Origin: Spirulina sp. CS-785/01
GTDB lineage: Bacteria; Cyanobacteriota; Cyanobacteriia; Cyanobacteriales; Spirulinaceae
DNA length: 58,870 bases
NCBI RefSeq assembly: GCF_028330525.1
Contig: NZ_JAQMSD010000089.1
Location: 1 to 58,870 of the forward strand
Reading direction: 5' to 3'
The translations under genes were made by a program, and so were the position numbers. Of this stretch, positions 7,941 to 49,127 are shown piece after piece; position 1 is the stretch's first letter; every line of letters begins with the position of its first letter. A model generated the notes under the pieces. That model made no database searches. It was not told the DNA's origin and saw only the letters and a list, made by a program, of their open reading frames with translations.

Positions 7941-8552
7941 TTAAATATTAAATGCAAATAATTGATTGGTATTCAAATGAAGCTCAGGAAAGAGGGGAGA
8001 TTGAATTTGCTCTCCACCCCGAAGGATTGTTTTTTGGTACGCTCCATCGATTAATTGACATAGCGTAATAGTGGGTTGTTTGGGAGAACCAATATAATAT
8101 TTTCCACCAATTCCCAAATAGTCAATAATCCAATATTCAGGAATGGCTAAGGTTTCATAGTCTTCATATTTGCGAGCATAATCATTTTGCCAGTTGGTAC
8201 TGACGACTTCGACTACTAATTTTACAGTTTCTCCTCTCGTGATAATAGGTTCTCTCGTCCAAAGGGGTTCTTGACGGAGTTGTTCTTCATCTAAGACGAT
8301 AACATCGGGTCTAAATGCACTGACTGTTCCTAGGGGACGAATTAAACAGCGATGGGGAATAAAATAAGGGACATTTAAACGATCAATTTGGACATTGAGT
8401 TTCCGACTAATAAAAGCACCCACTTGTTCATGGACTCCGGTAGGTTCTATGTCGATTAATTCTCCATCAATTAATTCGTATTGCTCATTATCTCCATAGT
8501 GAGAGATAAAGTCTTCAAACGTAATGCTTGTTGTTGGAGTTGTAGAAGTCAT
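7941..8552 (-). CDS. Uma2-family (DUF820) putative nuclease
   Basis: This is a 203-residue member of the Uma2/DUF820 family, a PD-(D/E)XK-fold group greatly expanded in cyanobacteria and of unclear role. Motifs are YELIDGELIDIEPTG near residue 28, RPDVIVLDEEQL near 80, VKLVVEVVSTNWQNDYARKYEDYETLAIPEYWIID (about 110-145) and the following strand. The acidic and Lys residues of the core (D in RPDV, E-V-V, then K) are intact, so it may be active. It converges with the HTH gene at 7920, 20 bases away. Confidence 0.9.
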   Translation of the reverse strand: MTSTTPTTSITFEDFISHYGDNEQYELIDGELIDIEPTGVHEQVGAFISRKLNVQIDRLNVPYFIPHRCLIRPLGTVSAFRPDVIVLDEEQLRQEPLWTREPIITRGETVKLVVEVVSTNWQNDYARKYEDYETLAIPEYWIIDYLGIGGKYYIGSPKQPTITLCQLIDGAYQKTILRGGEQIQSPLFPELHLNTNQLFAFNI

Positions 8553-8602
8553 GATTTTATCTCATTCATCACGTTTCAATTAGTAAGTCATTTCCAATAC
8601 AC

Positions 8603-8658
8603 CTTGGGTTAAAACCCAAGACTAATAGCTTAAACCCGTTAAAAACGGGTTGATCGAC
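8603..8658 (+). repeat. Double-hairpin dispersed repeat, copy 1
   Basis: The first palindrome CTTGGGTTAAAACCCAAG is followed by a 12-base spacer (ACTAATAGCTTA), a second palindrome AACCCGTTAAAAACGGGTT and GATCGAC. It is one of four copies in the window (others near 31.97, 38.81 and 48.74 kb). The rest of 8553-8859 is non-coding with no other recognisable element. Confidence 0.85.
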
Positions 8659-8859
8659 TCGAAACAAGTCTCTCAAGATCAAGTCCTCCTTCTGAGCGTT
8701 AGTTTTAGGCTGATGGCTGACGGCTGATAGCTGAATGCTTACCTCAATTAAAATAAAAAAGGAAAATTTATTGAAATAGTCTTGGTATTAAATGGTGGAT
8801 TTATTGGTTGATTAACGCGATTTTAGAGAGAAAAGAGTTATTGAGTAAAAAAACGCCTC

Positions 8860-31926: not shown

Positions 31927-31967
31927 ATAGGACATTTTACAGGGTGACAACAGCTACCTTTATATAC

Positions 31968-32022
31968 CTTGGGTTAAAACCCAAGGCTAATAGCTGAAAC
32001 CCGTTTTAACGGGTTGATAGAC
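31968..32022 (+). repeat. Double-hairpin dispersed repeat, copy 2
   Basis: CTTGGGTTAAAACCCAAG, spacer GCTAATAGCTGA, then AACCCGTTTTAACGGGTT and GATAGAC. It sits between the convergent cyaC and mrpB genes, where the two hairpins could act as a bidirectional terminator. Confidence 0.88.
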
Positions 32023-38614: not shown

Positions 38615-38809
38615 GCTGATCAGAGAGAATACTTGTCTTTCTAACCTAGCACACCTGATTCTCGACCCAGAGTTATAGCAGCAAACAGTAAACAGTCATC
38701 AGTCATCAGTGAGATAAGTCTTGAATCGTGAGGTTTTCCAGCATTGGCTAGTCAAATGTATCCCCGTGCTGATAGCTGATAGCTGAATGCTTATTTAATT
38801 TTCGGATTG

Positions 38810-38865
38810 GTCTATCAACCCGTTAAACACGGGTTTCAGCCATTAGCCTTGGGTTTTAACCCAAG
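38810..38865 (-). repeat. Double-hairpin dispersed repeat, copy 3 (inverted)
   Basis: On the minus strand this reads CTTGGGTTAAAACCCAAG, GCTAATGGCTGA, AACCCGTGTTTAACGGGTT and GATAGAC. It is the only copy in reverse orientation. It lies between the DinG-like gene start and the end of the second Uma2 gene. Confidence 0.88.
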
Positions 38866-38872
38866 GCATATT

Positions 38873-39709
38873 CTATTCCTCCACCTCCACCCCCAACGCT
38901 CGCAACTGGGCCGCCAGACGGTTCGCCCGTTGTTCTGCGGTTTCCGCCCGTTGTTCTGCGGCTTCCGCCCGTTGTGCGGCGGCCTCGGCTTGCTGGGTTG
39001 CAGCCTCCGCTTGCTGTGTTGCGGCCTCCGCTTGCTGTGTTGCGGCCTCCGCTTGTTGTGCGGCGGCTTCTTCAGGCATTAACACCACATTCCCATCTGG
39101 ATGGTAAAATCGCAACCAAGGCGCAGTAACTCGCAGAATCTCGCCCTGTCCAACTCCCACCCAGAATCCTAAAACGTCGCACCACAACCAGCCTTGCTCA
39201 TTGGCAACTAAGGGTTGATACTGGAAATTCCCATCTAGCTGCCAACCTTGTAAGGAACTTTCATCAAAGGGATCATAGACAAAATAATTACGGGTTCTAA
39301 AAACTCGTTCATAGAGGTCTTTTTTCGCTCCAGTGTCCACCTGACGAGTGGAGGGAGACATTAATTCAATAATCACATCTGGATAGCGTCCATTTTCATC
39401 CCAAACCACCCAACCTTCTCGCGGATACGTGCCATCAATATCTAGGACGGCGAAAAAATCTGGGCCCCGAAAATCCCGGTTTCTTGCTTGCTGGCGACTG
39501 TAGTAAATAAACATATTACCGCCTGTAAAATAGTCGTCTCGGTCTTCCCAGGCTTGTTGTAATGACCGAATCAAGACGTTCATGGCAATACGGTGGCGAT
39601 TACTTTCCAAGGGTTCTCCATCGTCGAAAATCAGGTCTTCGGGAGGCATTTGGGGTTCCCAAGCGGCTTCTGTGCTAGGTTCGTATTGGGTGCTAGTTTC
39701 TATGGCCAT
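38873..39709 (-). CDS. Uma2-family protein with C-terminal coiled-coil repeat
   Basis: This is a 278-residue Uma2/DUF820 protein. The PD-(D/E)XK-like core covers about residues 20-190 (GPDFFAVLDIDGTYPREGWVVWDENGRYPDVIIELMSPSTRQVDTGAKKDLYERVFRTRNYFVYDP), with D, E and K of the active site intact. Residues about 212-270 are seven-residue repeats EAATQQA/EAAAQRA/EAAEQRA, a predicted coiled coil ending LAAQLRALGVEVEE, which is the standard tail of many cyanobacterial members. Its role is unknown. Confidence 0.9.
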   Translation of the reverse strand: MAIETSTQYEPSTEAAWEPQMPPEDLIFDDGEPLESNRHRIAMNVLIRSLQQAWEDRDDYFTGGNMFIYYSRQQARNRDFRGPDFFAVLDIDGTYPREGWVVWDENGRYPDVIIELMSPSTRQVDTGAKKDLYERVFRTRNYFVYDPFDESSLQGWQLDGNFQYQPLVANEQGWLWCDVLGFWVGVGQGEILRVTAPWLRFYHPDGNVVLMPEEAAAQQAEAATQQAEAATQQAEAATQQAEAAAQRAEAAEQRAETAEQRANRLAAQLRALGVEVEE

Positions 39710-48661: not shown

Positions 48662-49127
48662 AAGTTATCACTGATTTTGGTGTGCATTCCCATATAGTCT
48701 AAGGCTGTATAGTATGGTTTTTAGTCACCTTAATATGCCTTGGGTTAAAACCCAAGGCTCATAGCTGAAACCCGTTAAAACGGGTTGATAGACGTAAGCA
48801 TTTTAATCGGAGCAAATCATTTTTGTGTACAGTCTCTGACTTCTGAGAAGATACTCTCCTGAATTAGTACCTTTGTTTTGAACAAACTTATTATTCTTAT
48901 AAGTTTTAGTTGATTGTCATTCTACCCCAATTTTGTGCAAAACTGGATGAGAGGGGGGGATGACGCGATTGCTTCGCACAGCCGGAAGGCTATCGCGCTT
49001 TCCCAAAACCCCTCCTCTCCCATGACGGCCATACCCCGTCCACGATACACTACAGAAAGAACAAGCCCGATAATCTGAATTCGGCTATCTTGCTGATTCC
49101 TCAAATTGCTTTCTCCTTCCCTAGCCC
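48662..49127. other. Divergent intergenic region with REP-like sequences
   Basis: No gene is seen between the mscS pair and the GST gene. It holds double-hairpin copy 4 at 48739. Near 48963-48999, GCGATTGCTTCGCACAGCCGGAAGGCTATCGC is a common cyanobacterial palindrome (GCGAT...ATCGC outside, AGCC GGAA GGCT inside), with part of a HIP1-like core. Confidence 0.5.
48739..48793 (+). repeat. Double-hairpin dispersed repeat, copy 4
   Basis: CTTGGGTTAAAACCCAAG, spacer GCTCATAGCTGA, AACCCGTTAAAACGGGTT and GATAGAC. It lies upstream of the mscS pair, in the region divergent from the GST gene. Confidence 0.88.

Follow-up and report, generated by a model that had tools for sequence, protein, structure and literature searches.

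Double-hairpin DNA repeats of a Spirulina genome: members of a cyanobacterial family probably spread by the single-strand transposase it adjoins

Four copies within the window

The window, i.e., the whole stretch of 58,870 nucleotides analysed here (Spirulina sp. CS-785/01, contig NZ_JAQMSD010000089.1), holds four copies of a double-hairpin element of about 61 bp each, situated where an earlier note on this DNA had placed them. Every copy consists, in this order, of a first palindrome, hpA (CCTTGGGTT..AACCCAAGG), an 11-nt linker, a second palindrome, hpB (AACCCGTT..AACGGGTT), and a short tail. Copy 1 (8597–8658, forward strand) has hpA at 8602–8621, the linker at 8622–8632, hpB at 8633–8651 and the tail GATCGAC at 8652–8658; in copy 2 (31962–32022, forward strand) the same parts are found at 31967–31986, 31987–31997, 31998–32015 and, with the sequence GATAGAC, 32016–32022. 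Copy 3 (38810–38871) is on the reverse strand, with hpA at 38847–38866, linker at 38836–38846, hpB at 38817–38835 and tail at 38810–38816, and copy 4 (48733–48793, forward strand) comprises hpA at 48738–48757, linker at 48758–48768, hpB at 48769–48786 and tail at 48787–48793.

A covariance model, R1, was built from 33 copies of the same genome and found all four over their full length (76.0, 85.5, 76.3 and 85.0 bits for copies 1 to 4; E ≤ 5.4e-18), scores which are not independent, since R1 was built partly from the window copies. With hpA alone, eight matches were obtained in the window (four copies on both strands) against 0.04 expected, a number reached by 0 of 100 dinucleotide shuffles; shuffled sequence gave essentially no matches to the double hairpin. 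The spacer, previously given as 12 bases, is present and measures 11 nt if 20 and 18–19 nt are assigned to the two palindromes. The tail GATAGAC occurs in three of the four copies, the exception being copy 1, in which the outermost pair of hpA is also broken. The loops differ among the four copies, as had been described; covariation of the arms is not seen at this level, since the arms hardly vary.

Gene calls and Pfam agree with the earlier placement of all four copies between genes. Copy 1 is upstream of a Uma2 gene (7941–8552; Pfam), copy 2 lies between convergent genes, copy 3 abuts another Uma2 gene (38873–39709; Pfam) at a distance of 2 bases from its stop, and copy 4 lies between divergent genes. 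An association with Uma2, suggested by copies 1 and 3, was dropped because only 3 of 100 ORFs neighbouring copies in the whole genome are Uma2-like. Copy 1 is enclosed in a 168-bp module (8580–8745), which is 94% identical to a module on contig C93 (L043, 943–1107).

Copies in the genome and in other cyanobacteria

A pattern of hpA plus linker, with up to three mismatches, matched 349 times in the 5.4 Mb of the genome, and the reversed pattern 0 times. This is an upper figure, in which some copies are counted on both strands, because hpA is palindromic and three mismatches are allowed. The hpB palindrome followed downstream in 78 of the 103 pattern matches that were read. A search of the genome with the covariance model, in which about the best 150 candidates were scored, yielded at least 152 copies. 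They occur singly or in same-strand tandem arrays, several of them at contig ends of the assembly (351 contigs), in which many contigs break off within such a repeat. The AACCCGTT type of hpB is carried by 80 of 82 copies, while AGTC types prevail in other genomes.

The earlier note had named two outcomes for copies throughout the genome that would speak against it, a lack of covariation and a lack of intergenic preference, and it withstood both. Overlap of more than 15 nt with an ORF of at least 100 amino acids was found for 4 of 80 copies, compared with 1209 of 1484 random placements; among 33 copies both-sided changes occurred in 5 of 15 pairs, with 98.6% of cells paired, and covariation is very strong between species (see below). 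Divergent gaps are avoided in this genome (2/52 vs 15/46, p 2.7e-4) and convergent gaps are weakly favoured (23/52 vs 11/46, p 0.055). The counts of the own genome (29 / 14 / 13 / 2) suggested that copies generally favour the 3' ends of genes, an idea that was rejected, other genomes being without such a bias.

Around many copies the flanking DNA is a mosaic of further repeated modules. Directly left of hpA a third palindrome with 12-bp arms (GTATTAAGGTAA-CA-TTACCTTAATAC) is present in some copies of the genome (L070, about 1045–1072) and degenerate in others. Heptad repeats, TAGCTGA...ATGCTTAC, adjoin copies at L030 (818–900, minus strand) and, in the window, at 8709–8740 and 38768–38790; in L030 they occupy the expected place of hpB, as if modules had been swapped.

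Short DNA repeats of two hairpins form a large family in cyanobacteria, of which the four copies are members. The model derived from the own genome matched 34 of 59 genomes over its full length, the own genome included, with about the best 92 candidates scored per genome. When the arms of the window copies were searched for as an exact pattern, no match was obtained in a collection of genome contigs from which the own and near genomes may be absent. When three consecutive stem positions per arm were left free, at least 109 stretches were matched among 84,980 species, and every one listed was cyanobacterial; Hormoscilla, Symploca, Microcoleus, Microseira, Nostoc, Anabaena, Fischerella, Trichodesmium, Okeania, Planktothricoides and others are among the genera of the matches listed.

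With this degenerate pattern, 116 distinct matches could be chosen regardless of the free positions, and the NNN/NNN arms were exactly complementary in 104 of them (chance, 1/64). The next pair was complementary in 113 of 116, and hpB paired at 7/8 or better in 106 of 116, a value attained by random hpB arms in 7 of 5800 trials. Among 78 aligned cross-species copies (alignment A4), two-sided changes were found in 281 of 1404 stem cells and one-sided changes in 2; these copies had been prefiltered for pairing (at least 7/8 per arm), so that their paired percentage is biased and the 116 matches represent the unselected test. The linker G-C-T-N-A-N-A-G-C..A-A (GGCTMATAGC-NN-AA) is nearly invariant in the 78 copies, and the unit length is fixed. 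Thus, with an unpaired linker that hardly changes and stems that covary, the element is constant in its linker and geometry and varies in the sequence of its stems. Intergenic placement is likewise strong across species (ORF overlap in 10/136 vs 2067/2760 random placements).

In the other cyanobacteria the full unit is often an inverted, tail-to-tail dimer of about 120–130 bp, resembling a REPIN: among 136 groups of copies, 39 had the orientation "+-", with hpB inside, and 1 the orientation "-+". In one genus the repeated unit measured about 119 bp (query positions 527–645 in most secondary matches). The genome of the window holds nearly all monomers, with an inverted pair in 1 of 69 groups.

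Comparison of congeners showed that the presence of the unit is polymorphic, in the form of replacements rather than clean insertions. At site L284 of genome G260 a dimer lies between convergent genes, and the unit is absent from eight congeners aligned across the site. Seven of those compared (G171, G084, G221, G285, G162, G299, G338) have instead 15–23 nt with a GC-rich, terminator-like palindrome; G246 holds another palindrome, and in G292 the match is confined to hpB and the sequence to its right. A second site, this one in G221, was compared with G292, G171, G084 and G260, all of which lack the unit and contain other sequence of 59–203 nt. Neither a target duplication nor a fixed target was seen at the compared sites, where the repeat replaces another hairpin and clean empty sites are lacking.

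The earlier note had attributed the complementary arms to selection on an RNA or DNA fold. Selection on a one-strand RNA would tolerate G-U pairs but not A-C. G-T and A-C mismatches numbered 10 and 11 in the 116 unselected copies, 16 and 24 in 154 linker-anchored copies, and 2 and 0 in the own genome. Since G-T is no commoner than A-C, it is as DNA, or on both strands, that the fold matters, or else palindrome correction repairs it. The fold itself is supported by cross-species covariation and intergenic placement; it is maintained as DNA or on both strands, and the one-strand RNA version is disfavoured.

G-U pairs would likewise be lost if both strands were under selection, which leaves room for a structured RNA, i.e., a bidirectional terminator or a stabiliser of mRNA 3' ends, spread by other means and with its stems selected in transcripts of both strands. 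The replacement of a terminator-like palindrome between convergent genes at L284 would fit such a role, as would the avoidance of divergent gaps and the weak convergent excess in the own genome. However, the gaps occupied in other genomes are unbiased (convergent 16/95 vs 62/361 in the background; divergent 16/95 vs 66/361), no clear U tract is found 3' of the hairpins in the copies listed, and Rfam models at gathering scores matched only a tRNA in the window and none of the copies. The clustering around one transposase subclass, described below, would also be left unexplained, and we regard a structured RNA as rather unlikely.

Template switching during replication can correct imperfect palindromes and would keep the arms complementary with no selection on the fold, the copies otherwise drifting. 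Such correction would yield Watson-Crick changes only, with G-T equal to A-C. The observed equality is as predicted, and perfect palindromes would be favoured even if they had no function. What this process does not predict is an unpaired linker nearly invariant across a phylum, the fixed spacing, the tail-to-tail dimers or the link to TnpA subclass 1.2. As a complete explanation it appears most improbable; palindrome correction may contribute to the covariation.

The adjoining Y1 transposase gene

The reading of the repeats as mobile DNA units, which we prefer, draws on their genomic neighbourhood. A search for Y1_Tnp was carried out in 16 element-rich genomes, and 30 loci out of about 130 matches listed were scanned. 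Double hairpins were present at 6 of the 30; the gene at L239 was surrounded by as many as ten. Five of the six proteins contain HUH and an end of the type Y---(N/R)(Q/H)K-x-HH, which is the signature of TnpA subclass 1.2, given as Y---Q--HH (PMC6006769); the assignment to the subclass is by this signature motif, not by a phylogenetic tree. H53 and H55 (HUH), Y113, H120 and H121 are invariant in all five, and Q is replaced in L230. The subclass-1.2 protein reaches 103 bits with Y1_Tnp, matches IS608 TnpA (2a6m) at E 2e-12 and is classified by NCBIfam with IS200/IS605 (89 bits, cut-off 55), not with RAYT (26 bits, cut-off 80). The same Y motif occurs in a second branch of Y1 proteins ending in HH, YIRNQA[VI]HH (L231 and L243), near whose genes double hairpins were absent.

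A profile of the five proteins gave matches in 134 of 290 genomes of the class at E ≤ 1e-5, mostly weak cross-matches to IS200; 29 genomes reached at least 160 bits, a cut which was our own and was set at a gap in the score table. Below it are G234 (148 bits, without a repeat match) and 12 more genomes, whose matches are partial or weaker (97–141 bits) and which are outside the 29. Most of the 29 genomes have a single copy of the gene, 26 of them having one match of at least 160 bits.

Double hairpins (E ≤ 1e-4, within about 1.5 kb) were detected at 26 of the 30 best subclass-1.2 loci, compared with 1 of 23 other Y1 loci (Fisher p 7e-10). The controls were the 30 scanned loci minus seven with an NQ/RHK-x-x-HH type motif (L229, L230, L231, L239, L240, L241, L243), and one of the tested loci (L248, identical with L239) had also helped to define the profile. 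Subclass-1.2 loci without a repeat were L269, L275, L276 and L277, and L267 was weak; the single control with a repeat, L227, is IS200-like. A strict structural scan gave double hairpins at 14/30 vs 1/23 loci, and 0 in 74,735 shuffled bases. By genome, with about the best 18 candidates scored in each, the repeat was present in 27 of the 29 with subclass 1.2 at 160 bits or more (the others being G213 and G167) and in 81 of the remaining 261 (p 5e-11, a value inflated by kinship). Of the 108 genomes in this class sample that bear the repeat, 81 have no strong subclass-1.2 gene; the repeats thus often exist without it.

In the family to which the window's organism belongs, subclass 1.2 was found in 2 of 13 genomes (G007 and G010), with the gene located between double hairpins. 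The G007 gene has several inverted dimers around it, whose hpB arms equal the window's AACCCGTT/AACGGGTT, which links the variant found in the window with subclass 1.2. In the 351-contig assembly of the window's genome no subclass-1.2 gene was found, the best match being an IS200 TnpA with 47 bits. The gene has either been lost, as seems to be so in G002 (two contigs, with many repeat copies and no subclass-1.2 gene), or lies in an assembly gap. The window's genome keeps a mostly monomeric branch, possibly orphaned of its transposase, and its near-identical copies and tandem arrays would then reflect past amplification or recombination. Of the suggestion of a recently active miniature element, the mobile element is borne out by presence and absence between congeners and by clustering at the Y1 gene; recent activity in the own genome is not, no cognate transposase having been found there.

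One typical RAYT is indeed present in the genome (L033, on contig C325 of G000; NCBIfam REP_Tyr_transpos, 185 bits), and a GTAG palindrome (GTAGTAAGCCC...GGGCTTACTAC) occurs near several copies, so the window's copies could be conceived of as REPs of this classical GTAG enzyme and not of subclass 1.2. Against this are the lack of any hpA/hpB match within the 3.4-kb locus around the RAYT gene, the rarity of GTAG or GTGG at the hairpin foot (3 of 78 copies) and the position of window-type hpB arms beside subclass 1.2 in the same family. Such an origin is very unlikely, and the C325 RAYT was rejected as partner, with no double hairpin beside its gene. The flank of this gene holds a different GTAG palindrome.

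Proposed explanation and comparison with known systems

The family is probably spread by the single-strand DNA transposase which it adjoins. More specifically, we consider it likely that these are REP/REPIN-like DNA repeats which TnpA subclass 1.2, acting in trans, moves as folded single-stranded DNA. On the model of IS608 TnpA, one of the sequence relatives in the PDB, and of TnpA_REP (PMC8266576), the folded unit would be bound through its two hairpins by this Y1-type HUH nuclease, the linker would serve as recognition or guide sequence, and the catalytic tyrosine would cut the unit, which could then be rejoined elsewhere; new insertions would survive chiefly between genes. The window's copies would stem from the same system, despite a gene apparently lost or unassembled.

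The 2018 survey of TnpA_Y1, in its passages on subclass 1.2, places it mainly in Cyanobacteria and Bacteroidetes, with the entry "no" for REP and without IS properties (PMC6006769), and what the subclass acts on was therefore open. The double hairpin is a testable candidate substrate, and the many natural stem variants could be used for studying how HUH nucleases read folded DNA. A large class of cyanobacterial intergenic hairpins would also be explained. More tentatively, and with some doubt on our part, subclass 1.2 and the double hairpin could perhaps constitute an independent, phylum-wide REPtron lineage, which arose from IS200-type transposases separately from the RAYTs and reads two-hairpin single-stranded DNA via the GCTMATAGC linker instead of GTAG; its units might also replace terminator hairpins at gene ends, the host recycling mobile hairpins as 3'-end signals. 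If true, REP-type systems would have arisen a second time, under a different rule of recognition. In the open PubMed Central literature, subscription papers being outside this scope, no prior description of the double-hairpin family was found.

The repeats share with REP, BIME and REPIN sequences and their RAYT (TnpA_REP) the short intergenic palindromes, whose copies number from tens to hundreds and, in other cyanobacteria, frequently form inverted dimers, and in the broad sense of high-copy intergenic palindromes they are REP-like. As in the REPtron of REP/RAYT systems, repeats cluster around a low-copy Y1 HUH gene and their sequence is family-specific; the arrangement of a Y1 gene flanked by repeats is that of most subclass-1.2 loci and was not found in the window's genome. 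In contrast to GTAG REPs, the GTAG or GTGG 5' of the hairpin foot, by which classical REPs are recognised, is missing in 75 of 78 copies. Unlike in REPs and REPINs, each half consists of two hairpins and a conserved linker, and the dimer has the second hairpin inside; unlike in RAYT systems, the associated Y1 protein is of subclass 1.2 (Y...NQK.HH). Because of the failed GTAG test and the different branch of nuclease, the family is set apart from classical REP/REPIN-RAYT systems. With the ends of IS200/IS605 elements and their non-autonomous derivatives it has in common that the Y1 transposase is of the IS200 branch and that subterminal hairpins come in a pair, but here the hairpins form arrays outside the gene rather than occurring once per end, the gene is mostly single-copy, and the units are inverted dimers. 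Also comparable are the TnpA_Y1 of class 3 and subclass 2.6, for which the survey describes many-copy secondary structures without GTAG near the Y1 gene, in Bacteroidetes, Planctomycetes, Acidobacteria and Proteobacteria, with the motif CnGA in class 3 (PMC6006769); in the family described here, however, the partner is subclass 1.2, and the hosts are cyanobacteria.
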